A DNA stretch of 64,000 nt from Betaproteobacteria bacterium (GTDB lineage: Bacteria; Pseudomonadota; Gammaproteobacteria; Burkholderiales; Ferrovaceae), in the NCBI GenBank assembly GCA_018971415.1, contig JAGXAW010000004.1, positions 1-64,000 on the forward strand. Direction: 5' to 3'. The notes under the pieces are model-generated. The model was not told the origin of the DNA. It saw only the letters and a list, made by a program, of their open reading frames with translations, and did no database searches. Both the position numbers and the translations under genes were made by a program. This document shows, piece by piece, positions 57,840 to 64,000 of this stretch (positions are counted from its first letter, which is position 1; each line of letters starts with the position of its first letter).

Positions 57840-58568
57840 ATGAAGGTCGGTCTATTTGTTACCTGTCTTGTGGACATGATGCGTCCATCAGTCGGTTTTT
57901 CAGCTATCGATTTACTTCGTCAAGCAGGCTGTGAGGTGGTGGTACCTGAAAACCAAACCTGTTGTGGACAACCTGGTTTCAATTCAGGTGATCGAGAATC
58001 TGGGCGAACCCTTGCTAAACGCTTTGTGGAACTCTTTGAAGAATGCGATTACGTCGTCGCCCCTAGTGGGTCCTGTACAGGCATGATCCGCATTCACTAT
58101 CAAGATTTGTTTCCGGAAAACCCCAGCTTACAGCAACGTATTAACCAACTTGCAGAGCGTACTTTTGAGTTGACTGATTTCTTGGTCAATGTCCTTCATA
58201 TTGATCAAGTCAACAGTGATTTTAAGGGGAATGTGACTTATCATGATTCATGCTCAGGACTTAGGGAATTACACATCAAGGAGCAACCCAGACAGCTTCT
58301 CAAGTCGATTACAGGTTTGACGCTCAAAGAGATGGAGCAAGCTGAATTATGCTGTGGTTTCGGAGGGACTTTTTCGGTCAAACTGGGTGACATTGCAACC
58401 CGTATGTCAGACAATAAATGTCGCTATGCCCAGCAAAGTGGTGCTGAGGTAATTGTGGGTGGAGATTTGGGTTGTTTACTAAATATCGAAGGGCGATTAA
58501 GACGCATGGGGGATAGCACAACCCAAGTTAAACATGTGGCTGAAATCTTAACTTACAAAGCAAAATAA
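57840..58568 (+). CDS. lutA: LutA/YkgE-like (Fe-S)-binding protein
   Basis: CCG motifs: PENQTCCGQPGFNSGD and AELCCGFGGTFSVK. Confidence 0.93.
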   Translation: MKVGLFVTCLVDMMRPSVGFSAIDLLRQAGCEVVVPENQTCCGQPGFNSGDRESGRTLAKRFVELFEECDYVVAPSGSCTGMIRIHYQDLFPENPSLQQRINQLAERTFELTDFLVNVLHIDQVNSDFKGNVTYHDSCSGLRELHIKEQPRQLLKSITGLTLKEMEQAELCCGFGGTFSVKLGDIATRMSDNKCRYAQQSGAEVIVGGDLGCLLNIEGRLRRMGDSTTQVKHVAEILTYKAK

Positions 58569-58570
58569 TT

Positions 58571-59980
58571 ATGGAACTCACTTCCTTTACTTTCAAAAAG
58601 AACGTCAAAAAAAAGCTCTCTGATGCCAGGCTACAAAACAATATGCGTCGCTTTGGTGGACGTTTTGTGGAGGCACGAGCAAAGGTTATGCAAGAGGTGG
58701 ATAACCTTGAGGACATTCGTGTTGCTGCTGCCGCTATTCGTGATCGATCCTTGGCCCATCTTGATACGTATTTAACTCTCTTTGAGGAACAGGCTCGTCA
58801 ACGGGGAACGATCGTTCATTTTGCTGAAACAGCCCACGATGTTAATCGCATAGTGATTGAGATTGCCAAAGCCAATCAAGTTAAAAAGATTGTGAAATCC
58901 AAATCCATGGTGAGTGAAGAATCTGGACTCAACGATGCGGTGATCAATGCCGGTATTGAAGCCATTGAGACAGATTTAGGTGAATATATTCTTCAGCTTG
59001 CAAAGGAGCCGCCCTCACACATTATCGCTCCTGCTATTCATAAAAGTGTGGAGGAGGTGGCGGAGCTTTTTGCAGAGCATCACCATACCCCTAAAAGCAC
59101 TGATATCCCCGCTTTATGTCGTGAGGCACGAGAACAGCTTCGTCCTCACTTTCTGTCAGCTGACATGGGGATTTCAGGTGGTAACTTCTTAATTGCGGAA
59201 ACTGGTTCAGTGGCGATTGTCACTAATGAAGGTAATGGAAGAATGGTTACCACCATGCCTAAAATTCACGTGGCTATCACCGGTATTGAGAAAGTACTTG
59301 GTACCGTTAACGACTTCTCAACCATTTTAAGATTACTGACCCGTTCAGCCACGGGTCAATCGATTACCAATTATGTTTCTGTCATGACTGGCGTAAAAGA
59401 CGCTGCCAATGCAGATGGTCCTGAACAGTCTCATGTGATCTTAGTTGACAGTGGACGATCGCGCTTATTGGGTAGCCGCTTGCAACAGGCACTTCGTTGC
59501 ATCCGCTGTGGTGCCTGTATGAACCATTGTCCTGTCTATCAAAATATCGGGGGCCATGCCTATGGTTGGGTTTATCCAGGTCCAATTGGTGCGGTATTAA
59601 CTCCCTCCTATGTGGGTTTAAAAGAGGCATTAGATCTACCACAGGCCTCCACCTTATGTGGAGCGTGTCAGGTGGTATGTCCAGTTAAAATTCCTCTCCC
59701 TGAATTGATGAGAGTGTTACGTGAGGACTCCTTCGCTGACGGACTTCGTCCATGGCACGAAAGGCTCTCAGTGCATCTGTGGCGTTTCACCGCTAACCAT
59801 CCTAAACTCTATGGTTTCTTAACCCGTTATGTGGTTAAGTTACTGAAACTGATGGGCGGCAAATCTGGCCAAATTCATTGGTTACCAGGCCTTGATGGTT
59901 GGACAGAAGGACGAGATATGCCAGCTCCTACGGGAAGTACTTTCCGTGACCAATATAAGGCACAACGTCATGAGCGCTAG
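58571..59980 (+). CDS. lutB: LutB/YkgF-like iron-sulfur protein
   Basis: ALRCIRCGACMNHCPVYQNIGGHAYGWVYPGPIGAVLTP, STLCGACQVVCPVKIPLPELM. Confidence 0.95.
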   Translation: MELTSFTFKKNVKKKLSDARLQNNMRRFGGRFVEARAKVMQEVDNLEDIRVAAAAIRDRSLAHLDTYLTLFEEQARQRGTIVHFAETAHDVNRIVIEIAKANQVKKIVKSKSMVSEESGLNDAVINAGIEAIETDLGEYILQLAKEPPSHIIAPAIHKSVEEVAELFAEHHHTPKSTDIPALCREAREQLRPHFLSADMGISGGNFLIAETGSVAIVTNEGNGRMVTTMPKIHVAITGIEKVLGTVNDFSTILRLLTRSATGQSITNYVSVMTGVKDAANADGPEQSHVILVDSGRSRLLGSRLQQALRCIRCGACMNHCPVYQNIGGHAYGWVYPGPIGAVLTPSYVGLKEALDLPQASTLCGACQVVCPVKIPLPELMRVLREDSFADGLRPWHERLSVHLWRFTANHPKLYGFLTRYVVKLLKLMGGKSGQIHWLPGLDGWTEGRDMPAPTGSTFRDQYKAQRHER

Positions 59981-60617
59981 AGACAATATCTTTGCCCGTA
60001 TTCGCCGCGGCTTGGGGTTACCTACACATCCAGAACCTGCTGAGCGTGAGCAGGCGCTCAAGGTATTACAAGAGAAACCCCGCGGACCACGTCCAAGCCA
60101 AGTCTGGCAAGACCCTGTGCAGCGTTTTATTGAGCGCTGTGCTCAGCTATCTACAACCACTGAAACTGTTTCAGATATACTTGCGATTCCTATGGCAGTG
60201 GCAAGTTATTTAAATCAACATCATTTAACTCGAGAGATGGTTATCTGGCCTGGTTTAGCCCATCTGAATTGGCAACAAGCTGGATTAAGTGTGCGTGTTG
60301 GAAGTGCTAAAAATGAGGATTTGGTGGGCGTTACTGGGGCATTTTGTGCCATTGCAGAAACAGCGACCCTAATGATGCCTTCCGGTTCTGAGACTCCTTC
60401 AACGGTGAGTTTACTGCCTGAAACACATATTGCTCTTCTCGATAAATCCAGAATTGTGAATTACATGGAAGACGCCTGGGATCTTTATTTGTCAGAACAC
60501 AAAACCTTACCCAGAGCGGTGAATTTTATATCGGGTCCCTCTCGTACAGCAGACATTGAGCAAACCATTATTATTGGTGCCCATGGTCCTTACCGAGTTC
60601 ACGTGATTATCTATTAA
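59970..60617 (+). CDS. lutC: LutC/YkgG-like protein
   Basis: AIAETATLMMPSGSETPSTVSLLPETHIALL, ISGPSRTADIEQTIIIGAHGPYRVHVI; start adjusted to 59970. Confidence 0.94.
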   Translation: MSARDNIFARIRRGLGLPTHPEPAEREQALKVLQEKPRGPRPSQVWQDPVQRFIERCAQLSTTTETVSDILAIPMAVASYLNQHHLTREMVIWPGLAHLNWQQAGLSVRVGSAKNEDLVGVTGAFCAIAETATLMMPSGSETPSTVSLLPETHIALLDKSRIVNYMEDAWDLYLSEHKTLPRAVNFISGPSRTADIEQTIIIGAHGPYRVHVIIY

Positions 60618-61953
60618 TACCTCGCTTGTCGTCTATTTGTTTAATTGGTTGATATTGAAACGCATCACTGTTAAAAACAGTCAGAGCGCGTTCAACGCCC
60701 AATGTTCTTGAACGAATAAAATCAGTGAGGTGTTGGCTTTGTTTTAATTGATATTGCCAAATATGTGTAAGCGTATGTTGAGCAAAAGTGTTATTTAAAT
60801 AAGCTTCATTAATTAGAAACTGTATCCATGAGGGTTTCTTGTTAATGGTTGTTTGTTGTATCGCTTTGAGTGTCGTGGGCGAATGATTGAGAGCGTTGAT
60901 CAGATATTGACGACCGCGACGAGATACCACAGAGCGATCAAATAATCTTTCAATAACCACTCCCTGTTGAGTTTTATTATAAGAATAAGTGTGTTTTTTT
61001 CTTAAGGATATACCATGGTTTAAAGAGGCATAATACTGTTGCCTTAATTGCCTGAGTTCAGCATCTTGTCGGTTCCACTGATGATGGTGAGGGTGTGAGT
61101 TAATCGTTTTTTCTGGGGTATAGAGTTGGCAGTAGGCTTGGTAACTTATTTTACTGTGAGTGGGTAAGCGAAGCGTATCAGTAAAAGGGCCCCATTGTTT
61201 AATGAGACAATTTGAACTTAAATTTTTATCAATCAATGAGGGCTTAATATAGATTGAGCGGCCATTCACTTGGGTTTCCCAGACAAAGGATTGGTGGCGG
61301 CCAATAATGCGCACACCGCAAAAATTTAGAACCTTGATCAGTGATGACCAATTACTGTCACTACGATGAGTAAGGGATAAAAGTTGATCTTTTAAATAGA
61401 CCTTCATCCACTGATAAAAAGATAAAGGTTTTATATTGAGTTGCTCAAGTTTAATCGTGTGGTTATTAAAATTTCTGATGTTTGAAGTCACTTGGTTATA
61501 GTGAGCCATATCTTTTTTAATTTGTCTTTTTACTAATAAGTCTTGATTAGAAGACAGTAACAAAAGATGAGCGTGTGGATGGGCGGTTTGCGTATGAATA
61601 AACCACATACTCAAGGGATGAATAGAGTGATAGTGACTGAACAAACGGTCTATTTCTTTTTTTATCGTGTAATAAGAGGTCTCTTTATTTTGCCAAGACA
61701 GGACCAAATGATCAAGCTGTGGTGATATGTCGCCACGGCTTTGATACTGATTCTTTAACAGGTAGGCAAGACTTAATACATCGCTTTTTTGGTAAATTAA
61801 GATATGTGCGTTATGCGTTCCCATTAAACCTTGACTGTTAGTCCAATGATCCTCCACAAAGTAATCACGGGTCATGTAAAGTAATAGATTTTTAAAAGAA
61901 AAGAGATGAGTAATTTTTCGTCTTACTAAGAAATGAAGGTTTACCCCTGACAT
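60607..61953 (-). CDS. Relaxase/mobilization nuclease-like protein (MOBP/TraI-like), divergent
   Basis: Candidate catalytic Tyr segment LLLYMTRD; LDHLVLSWQNKE; three-His signature IHTQTAHPHAHLLLL (cf. HxDTDHxHxH); SLIDKNLSSNCLIKQWGPF resembles the relaxase 'RLGPF' region. Confidence 0.62.
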   Translation of the reverse strand: MSGVNLHFLVRRKITHLFSFKNLLLYMTRDYFVEDHWTNSQGLMGTHNAHILIYQKSDVLSLAYLLKNQYQSRGDISPQLDHLVLSWQNKETSYYTIKKEIDRLFSHYHSIHPLSMWFIHTQTAHPHAHLLLLSSNQDLLVKRQIKKDMAHYNQVTSNIRNFNNHTIKLEQLNIKPLSFYQWMKVYLKDQLLSLTHRSDSNWSSLIKVLNFCGVRIIGRHQSFVWETQVNGRSIYIKPSLIDKNLSSNCLIKQWGPFTDTLRLPTHSKISYQAYCQLYTPEKTINSHPHHHQWNRQDAELRQLRQQYYASLNHGISLRKKHTYSYNKTQQGVVIERLFDRSVVSRRGRQYLINALNHSPTTLKAIQQTTINKKPSWIQFLINEAYLNNTFAQHTLTHIWQYQLKQSQHLTDFIRSRTLGVERALTVFNSDAFQYQPIKQIDDKRGINR

Positions 61954-62243
61954 TGATAAAACTCATGAATCTCATTTAACAAAGTATTTAACTTTCTGTA
62001 TAAATCATGACACGACAAAATCAAACTCACATTGTCGTGATGTTGATGCCAATAGGCCATACTTAACTTTATTTCATGTAACGCCGCCAAAAAATATTCC
62101 ACACTGACCGTCGAGTTATGCTCAGAAAGTAAAGTATGTTTAACCCACAATTCGGGTGTAAGAGCACTTGATAGGATAGCTCTTTCAATGGTTTTGGATT
62201 CCTGAACACTTAAAGGGGCATGGTGATAAATGATAGGGTGCAT
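61941..62243 (-). CDS. Small MobC/TraJ-like (ribbon-helix-helix-type) accessory protein candidate
   Basis: LSVQESKTIERAILSSALTPELWVKHTLLSE fits 'LTPEEkaxIexxAxxxGLSxSxWVRRALL'-like pattern; overlaps the relaxase-like gene; alternative start at 62255. Confidence 0.45.
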   Translation of the reverse strand: MHPIIYHHAPLSVQESKTIERAILSSALTPELWVKHTLLSEHNSTVSVEYFLAALHEIKLSMAYWHQHHDNVSLILSCHDLYRKLNTLLNEIHEFYQCQG

Positions 62244-62270
62244 ACCCCTAATCATCCTTAAGGGAAAAAT

Positions 62271-63611
62271 TTATTTTTTGAGAAAAGAGATGGCAACTTT
62301 AAAACCTTGTTGCTGAGGCAATTGTTCAAGTGTAATTCTGGCCTGATGAAGCTCTACTATTCTTTGAACGATAGATAACCCTAAACCACTACCTTGCTCT
62401 ATGGTCTCATCTAAACGATAAAATCGATTAAAAATTTTGTGTTGTTCCTCAGGCTCAATGCCTTTGCCTTGATCGATAACAGCAAGTTCTATCATATCTT
62501 TATACTGTTTAAGAGTGATGCGGATAATAGAGTACTGAGGGGAATAGCGTAGGGCGTTATCCAGCAGGTTACGTAGCATAATTTCCAATTGCCAAGGATT
62601 ACCAGTCACCCATAAATCGTCTTCAAGTTGACACTGTACTTCGATAGCTCGTTGTTTAGCATAGCCTAGTAGGCATCCGCTTACTTTTTGTATGACCTGT
62701 TTCAGATCCGTTTTAATCATTTCATTCTGGGCGTTATCCGGGTCCACCCGAGCCAATACCAGTAATTGCTCAATTAAGTGAGTGGAACGCTCAGTGCCTT
62801 GTATCACCTGTTGAAGTGCATGCATTCGATCATCCGTGTTGTCAGCTCTCATGGCTATTTGCGCTTGAATCTTAATGGCCGCAAGAGGTGTTCTGAGTTC
62901 GTGAGCCGCGTTACCTGTAAATTGTTTTTCACTGTCGAGAGAGCGTTTTAATCGGTTCAAGAGATCATTGATAGAGACTGCTAAAGGAAGAACTTCATCT
63001 GGCACTGCGGAAAGCTCAATGGGGTCTAGTCGTGATGCATTTCTCTCAACAATGGCTTGCCGTAATTTATTCAGCGGTGTTAGTCCCATGCGAACAGTAA
63101 ACCAAATTAAAAAGCCTAAAAACGGGAAAAATGCGAGCGTGGGAAGCAGTATTTGGTAGGTAATGTGTCTTGCTAATTTGGCACGTGTGGCAACTGGTTC
63201 TGCAATAAAAATATGATAAGTATGATTGTCATCCCATAAATTCAGTAAGCGCCACTGTTGATTTAAATAGCGAATTTCTTGAAAGCCTGCTTGATTATTA
63301 TTAATAAGTGGTAATTCAGGCGCGTAGAGTGAGCGCATGACAATGCCGTTACTGTCCCATACTTGATAGAGCATGGTTTGTGCGTAGGGCTGTCCATCAG
63401 GTGTGGGATAACCGCCGTGCTCAATGATCTCCTCTTTCTCGCGTCTTGCCATACCAATTAAGATATGGGCAGCTTGAGTGATTTCTGCATCAAAAATTGC
63501 ATCTATTTCGTCCCGTGTTTCGTAACGGGTTAACAGAGCGGTGATTAACCATGCGCAAGACAACAGTGCAATTAATAAAAAAATTAAACGACGTCGAATA
63601 GATGTCATCAT
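62271..63611 (-). CDS. Two-component sensor histidine kinase
   Basis: H-box FTGNAAHELRTPLAAIKIQAQIA; N-box NLLDNALRYSP; G-boxes DQGKGIEPEEQ, GSGLGLSIVQRI. Confidence 0.96.
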   Translation of the reverse strand: MMTSIRRRLIFLLIALLSCAWLITALLTRYETRDEIDAIFDAEITQAAHILIGMARREKEEIIEHGGYPTPDGQPYAQTMLYQVWDSNGIVMRSLYAPELPLINNNQAGFQEIRYLNQQWRLLNLWDDNHTYHIFIAEPVATRAKLARHITYQILLPTLAFFPFLGFLIWFTVRMGLTPLNKLRQAIVERNASRLDPIELSAVPDEVLPLAVSINDLLNRLKRSLDSEKQFTGNAAHELRTPLAAIKIQAQIAMRADNTDDRMHALQQVIQGTERSTHLIEQLLVLARVDPDNAQNEMIKTDLKQVIQKVSGCLLGYAKQRAIEVQCQLEDDLWVTGNPWQLEIMLRNLLDNALRYSPQYSIIRITLKQYKDMIELAVIDQGKGIEPEEQHKIFNRFYRLDETIEQGSGLGLSIVQRIVELHQARITLEQLPQQQGFKVAISFLKK

Positions 63612-64000
63612 TTATCGATTACATATCCTATGCCGCGTATGGTTCGAATGAGATCATTGCCTAATTTTTTTCGTAAATGGTGGATATGTACTTCAACAGA
63701 ATTACTCTCAATTTCATCATCCCAGCCATAGAGCTTTTCCTCCAATTGCTCTCTTGAAAACACCCGACCTTGATTCAGTAAGAGTTGTTCTAAGATATTA
63801 AACTCCTTGGCAGAAATGGCAACAGTCTGTTGATCCAGTGTCACGCTATGGGCTGCCGGATCGAGGGTTAGGTTACCTCGTTGAATAATGGGAGAACTCT
63901 GGCCACTGCTACGCCGAACTAAGGCGCGAATCCTCGCCAATAACTCATCAAGGTCAAAGGGCTTGATCAGATAGTCATCAGCGCCACTGTCCAGCCCCTT
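63608..64000 (-). CDS. OmpR-family response regulator (truncated by window edge)
   Basis: wHTH LTLDPAAHSVTLDQQTVAISAKEFNILEQLLLNQGRVFSREQLEEKLYGWDDEIESNSVEVHIHHLRKKLG; frame continues to 64000 as GLDSGADDYLIKPFDLDELLARIRA. Confidence 0.95.
   Translation of the reverse strand, partial: KGLDSGADDYLIKPFDLDELLARIRALVRRSSGQSSPIIQRGNLTLDPAAHSVTLDQQTVAISAKEFNILEQLLLNQGRVFSREQLEEKLYGWDDEIESNSVEVHIHHLRKKLGNDLIRTIRGIGYVIDK

Follow-up and report, generated by a model that had tools for sequence, protein, structure and literature searches.

A TraI-type relaxase fixed in the chromosome of Ferrovum group 2 as a likely component of a fragmented IncP-like conjugation system

The window analyzed here, a stretch of 64,000 nucleotides from a 1.52-Mb, 69-contig assembly (G000), belongs to Ferrovum group 2, a lineage of acid-mine iron oxidisers with genomes of 1.5-2.0 Mb. 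Near its end, the minus strand of positions 60607..61953 carries an open reading frame of 448 codons, with an ATG at 61953 and a stop codon ending at 60607; the plus strand of this interval is closed by many stops. A sequence-only reading of this DNA had reported a 448-aa relaxase-like protein with three peptides, all of which are present and encoded on the minus strand: LLLYMTRD (residues 23-30), IHTQTAHPHAHL (residues 119-130), which holds a histidine cluster, and SLIDKNLS...LIKQWGPF (residues 239-257). The ORF is real and more than a chance frame, as every other genome sampled from the genus has an intact orthologue in the corresponding place, and its profile matches identify it as a divergent member of the TraI/MobA(P) relaxase family. 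Its G+C content is 36.7%, compared to 43.7% for the window, and is close to that of a distant cluster of transfer genes, locus A (39.2%).

Directly upstream of the relaxase gene, on the same strand, is a gene for a 104-aa protein (61941..62255; 101-104 aa across the genus), which overlaps the relaxase ORF by 13 nt. It takes the position of the TraJ or ribbon-helix-helix (RHH) accessory genes of MOBP relaxases; no clear homology to these families was detected, as hhalign gave a probability of 3.3% (E 0.013), in register only, and there was no Pfam match. Further upstream, a QseBC-like two-component operon (62271..64000, minus strand) encodes a histidine kinase (62271-63611) and a response regulator, which extends from 63608 past the window end. 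Because only 15 nt separate the kinase stop from the start of the 104-aa ORF, the genes for the response regulator, the kinase, the 104-aa protein and the relaxase are probably co-transcribed as one operon. On the other side, lutABC-like genes on the plus strand (57840..60617) converge on the relaxase gene, with an 11-nt overlap of the 3' ends, and beyond them lie genes for an ABC exporter and a D,D-carboxypeptidase-like protein. The order abc-pbp-lutABC-relaxase-104aa-qseC-qseB is identical in the four genomes sampled from the genus (i.e., G000, JA12 [G001], G002 and G003, the last of which is a MAG), and the flanking genes are 77-93% identical within the genus. At the lut loci examined in other genera of the family, the block is kept up to lutC, with neither the relaxase gene nor the kinase gene after it.

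No replication, partition or integrase genes and no terminal repeats were recognized among the ORFs at this locus (locus C) or at loci A and B of G000, described below. The housekeeping surroundings noted in the earlier reading are borne out by the conserved genes on both sides of the relaxase in four species, and these same flanks speak against its suggestion that the gene marks the edge of a cryptic mobilizable element. Its statement that no T4SS, coupling protein, integrase or repeat was present holds for the last 10 kb of the window but not genome-wide, as a coupling protein and a T4SS are encoded on other contigs. The relaxase is also not "stranded", since these chromosomes hold the remaining conjugation system at other sites, in intact form and with conserved gene order. 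"Domesticated" is largely apt, given one fixed locus in the genus, purifying selection and the absence of mobile-element genes beside the relaxase.

When plasmids were searched by tblastn with single sequences, matches to TraI were found only below significance, and profiles were used in place of these searches for that reason. The NCBIfam model NF041893 (TraI_MobP_relax) matched the window relaxase with an E of 7e-14 and 51.6 bits, against an equivalog cut-off of 250, and the Pfam matches were TraI_middle (6.8e-5; residues 178-259) and Relaxase (0.029). These three models matched all four orthologues (best Relaxase E, 1.8e-5), two of which exceeded the Pfam Relaxase cut-off. Comparison with three plasmid TraI proteins by hhalign gave a probability of 95.7% (E 9e-9) for an alignment that spans residues 78-260 and places His120, His127 and His129 on the histidines of the TraI triad; with a wider set, the probability was 94.1%. 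Identity to plasmid TraI in the profile alignments is 15-20%. A phmmer search of the PDB gave no match, and two AlphaFold models, each built from a sequence pair, were weak (59.8 and, for the relaxase model built from only 2 sequences, a mean pLDDT of 39.5). These comparisons indicate that the window protein is almost certainly a relaxase homologue, which agrees with the earlier reading.

Tyr26, His120, His127 and His129 are invariant in the four species, although the orthologues share only 36-43% identity. In an L-INS-i (local-pair) alignment of the N-terminal halves, Tyr26 falls on the catalytic Tyr22 of TraI; a profile of the motif I segment around Tyr26 scored no better than shuffles, and the assignment of Tyr26 as putative catalytic residue is therefore positional. 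The acidic residue of the HxD motif is a possible defining feature of MOBP relaxases. At this position, the window relaxase has Q (Q122), the JA12 protein D and the other two orthologues N, so that the acidic residue is variable rather than lost. The earlier description of all histidines as kept thus applies throughout the genus, whereas its description of the acidic positions as Q/A fits the window (Q122) only.

The relaxase orthologue is found at the same locus in 4 of 4 sampled genomes of the genus, with 436-448 codons and no frameshift or stop in any copy. It was not found in any of the 28 other genomes of the family, and a search of 399 genomes of the order gave, outside the genus, only weak matches that are probably to other relaxases. 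A single-sequence scan of the genome contigs for further copies found nothing, and the only match in an alignment-based contig scan was a copy in MAG SKS1.bin125, apparently G003 contig 34. In G000, G002 and G003, the relaxase is the only protein that matches the MOBP or Pfam Relaxase models, which means that no other relaxase detected with these models serves their T4SS. JA12 also carries a second, ICE-type T4SS (contig 2:378-418 kb), which has a separate TraF and a relaxase of DUF3363 type and seems to be the ICE reported in PMC4886054. A third JA12 locus (contig 1:561-569 kb) combines a TrbJ-like gene with an open frame of 959 aa, which, judging by its match to TraI_MobP_relax, is a separate MOBP relaxase.

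All four genomes contain one syntenic IncP-like T4SS set, located away from the relaxase and divided between two complementary loci. Locus A (contig 34 in G000) has the order traC(ArdC-like)-traG-traF-trbB-C-D-E-J and is flanked by serA/serC on one side and a short-chain dehydrogenase gene on the other, with genes for an RNA pseudouridylate synthase and rmuC farther out. Locus B, found through TrbL and TrbI matches, comprises trbL, an efflux cluster, trbF-G-I and traK/L/M/B-like genes; in each of the four species, the cluster, of HlyD and ABC-2 type, separates trbL from trbF (L044:2095-7081). Comparisons by tblastn with R751 and with a plasmid of Diaphorobacter recovered the full Trb/Tra set. 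Homologues of the coupling protein (TraG), VirB4 (TrbE), VirB11 (TrbB) and VirB2/3/5/6/8/9/10 (TrbC/D/J/L/F/G/I) are present and syntenic, with one orthologue each of TrbL and TrbI in all four genomes. The last gene of locus B is TraB-like (E 7e-51 against plasmid proteins), a ParA-like gene has TraL proteins as its best matches (2.5e-4), and for two other genes TraK and TraM proteins rank first without reaching significance; the gene for the TraL-like ATPase belongs to the transfer genes and is not part of a partition pair. No TrbN/VirB1-like transglycosylase was seen at the loci examined, and VirB1 and VirB7 are described as missing in Ferrovum in PMC4725956 and PMC4886054. On contig 2 of JA12, the region at 194-219 kb contains loci A and B, with housekeeping genes between them; the relaxase gene, at 59-60 kb, is about 135 kb from there.

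PF02534, the family of coupling proteins, is matched exactly once in each of G000, G002 and G003, and the second match in JA12 is inside its known ICE. Each genome has one orthologous TraG (72-75% identity), and a full-length TraG orthologue was not found elsewhere in the family. Because the orthologous TraG is confined to the genus, as is the relaxase, the two have a matching phyletic range. Other TraG-like proteins, with 60-66% identity, occur in genus g2 (G011 contigs 6 and 93, G031 contig 54), and the F. myxofaciens genomes are described as having no gene for D4 in PMC4886054. Overall, these comparisons suggest that the relaxase and loci A and B very probably belong to a single system.

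Such a set of genes could also have been turned to secretion of protein or free ssDNA or, in biofilm streamers, to contact between cells; the relaxase would then act as a piloting substrate or as a nuclease with another role. The vertical fixation and dispersal of the T4SS genes fit a domesticated system of this kind, and the location of the relaxase downstream of a two-component operon suggests host regulation. There is also a precedent in the T4SS of the gonococcal genetic island, which secretes ssDNA into the medium (PMC4207684). However, no effector-like gene was recognized at the loci, and the genes that are kept include a conjugation-specific set (i.e., the coupling protein, an ArdC/TraC-like protein, TraF, TraK/L/M-like proteins and a relaxase with its His triad); a repurposed T4SS is thus considered quite unlikely.

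In the G002/G003 pair, the T4SS genes have a dS near 1 and a dN/dS of 0.05-0.24, and the relaxase has a dN of 0.013, a dS of 0.074 and a dN/dS of 0.18; this last ratio comes from G002/G003 only, the other pairs being saturated at synonymous sites with the ORF intact in each. By these estimates, both the relaxase and the T4SS genes are under purifying selection. The relaxase shares 43% identity with its JA12 orthologue, compared to 75% for TraG and 75-93% for the neighboring genes and coupling protein taken together, and this much faster evolution could reflect relaxed constraint; TraF and the TraB-like and TraM-like proteins are also fast-evolving. A relaxase that has lost its function and is slowly eroding, left behind when an ancestral conjugative element was broken by rearrangement, would be expected to differ between species as this one does (36-43% identity versus 77-93% for flanking genes), and the variable Asp of the HxD motif, the weak N-terminal motif and the failure to find an oriT at loci A and B are in line with such a relic. 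On the other hand, an ORF of 436-448 codons is intact in four species, even though dS is close to 1 or higher for most other genes, the Tyr and the three His are invariant with a relaxase dN/dS of about 0.18, and the T4SS genes are equally intact and constrained, which together make a relic unlikely.

The low relaxase dS in G002/G003 belongs to a sharply bounded 42.7-kb tract with 97-99% identity, which begins near the lutC start and takes in the relaxase gene (G003 contig 34:35000-77727 versus G002 contig 4:102744-143800) and includes a 1.77-kb stretch present only in G003; the two genomes are otherwise about 80-87% identical. In a sample that took in other contigs, 57 of the 174 kb aligned were above 95% identity, this tract included. 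Further >95% tracts were observed on G003 contigs 7 and 22. An explanation of the 42.7-kb tract by Hfr-type transfer that proceeds in one direction from an origin next to the relaxase was considered and rejected, given the additional >95% tracts elsewhere; the tract thus shows mosaic genomes and is not evidence for the relaxase gene. The high-identity tracts may represent recent interspecies exchange or MAG mixing, as G003 is a MAG and could combine strains.

This apparent recent exchange of a tract with the relaxase between two species, together with the fact that the relaxase adjoins no T4SS gene, would also fit a small mobilizable cassette, acquired independently and sharing the genome with the T4SS by chance. 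This origin is highly improbable though, as the relaxase has the same position in four species, other pairs have diverged far beyond recent transfer, neither terminal repeats nor an integrase were seen, and the phyletic pattern of the relaxase is exactly that of the T4SS.

A search for an IncP-type nic sequence at loci A and B gave scattered matches, none of which was conserved in position, and the intergenic gaps at locus C are too short to hold an oriT. The intergenic region between serC and traC, which spans 3345-3605 of contig 34 in G000, contains a conserved ATCTTAC-NN-AAGA, a fixed spacing and then ATTATAAG in all four genomes, followed in most genomes by a palindrome around TATAAGTT. 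This element upstream of traC (L025:3382-3480 on G000 contig 34; same place in G001-G003) could be an operator or an oriT. Its first part occurs in exactly one copy in each of the four genomes; since the pattern was derived from these same sequences, only this uniqueness within each genome is informative.

Compared to TraI of the IncP plasmids RP4 and R751 (MOBP), the Ferrovum relaxase shares a relaxase domain with a His triad, a TraI middle domain, a small gene immediately upstream and partners (TraG, TraF and Trb) of IncP type. In contrast, it has 448 aa, versus 621-889 aa for most of the plasmid proteins used, and is chromosomal and fixed rather than located beside traG, oriT or traK. The top-scoring plasmid relaxase found was TraI of a Sedimenticola thiotaurini plasmid (NZ_CP011413; hmmsearch E 5e-9), where a small gene similarly overlaps traI and is followed by traG-traF-traB-like genes; this module is one cluster on a 33 kb plasmid, while the Ferrovum genes are found at three chromosomal loci. 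The gonococcal genetic island carries a T4SS of class MPF_F and a relaxase of family MOBH, both different from those of Ferrovum. It resembles the Ferrovum system in being a chromosomal T4SS, which in that case exports chromosomal ssDNA, but is a single island found only in a sub-population (PMC4207684). Helicobacter pylori also has a chromosome-encoded relaxase, rlx1/hp0996, which is reported to work together with a coupling protein that the chromosome also encodes (PMC3447787). The tfs3/tfs4-linked relaxases of H. pylori are of VirD2 type and located beside variably present T4SS islands (PMC3447787), whereas the Ferrovum relaxase is of TraI type, far from the T4SS and fixed in all sampled genus members.

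The Ferrovum T4SS loci themselves have been published. In the available parts of PMC4725956 and PMC4886054, VirB/D4 T4SS genes are treated as mobile-element signatures and taken as signs of conjugation, with three T4SS loci in JA12; the "nearly complete" JA12 locus (PMC4725956) and the PN-J185 set (PMC4886054) are probably the T4SS genes described here. The papers do not mention a relaxase, and these parts do not describe vertical fixation or a distant relaxase. In the literature searched, no report of a Ferrovum relaxase or of the split arrangement was found.

The fixation of the relaxase at one spot, with an intact mating machine elsewhere in the chromosome, suggests that the machine is owned by the cell and not by a plasmid. 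We consider it likely that the window encodes the relaxase of an IncP-like (MOBP/MPF_T) conjugation system that is fixed in the chromosome of Ferrovum group 2, fragmented and without an element. The ancestral system would have been a plasmid or an ICE, which in the ancestor of the genus would have lost its replication, maintenance and integration genes, with the transfer genes split over locus A, locus B and locus C, the last with the relaxase and its 104-aa partner. Tyr26, together with a metal held by His120/127/129, would nick a chromosomal oriT (a site not found at loci A and B), and the relaxase would remain bound to the 5' end of the nicked strand. TraG would then dock the relaxase and the Trb channel would export the strand, resulting in Hfr-like transfer of chromosomal DNA into neighboring cells. 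We see about even chances that the system still transfers DNA, and its cargo is perhaps chromosomal DNA. As a more tentative extension, conjugation could be a cellular trait of Ferrovum group 2, in which a non-mobile, dispersed and host-regulated machine derived from IncP, with the relaxase as initiator, carries chromosomal DNA from one species to another within the acidic biofilm; the >95% tracts, including the 42.7-kb tract, would then be its products.

When T4SSs have been domesticated, they are usually described as secretion systems for proteins that no longer have their relaxase. In Ferrovum group 2, a lineage with small genomes, the relaxase is kept, is under selection and is physically apart from the machine. 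Scans that demand a relaxase beside T4SS genes would label such systems as protein exporters or mobilizable fragments. If the system still works, "conjugation without an element" would become testable, and the system could account for the mosaic of segments recently exchanged among Ferrovum species.
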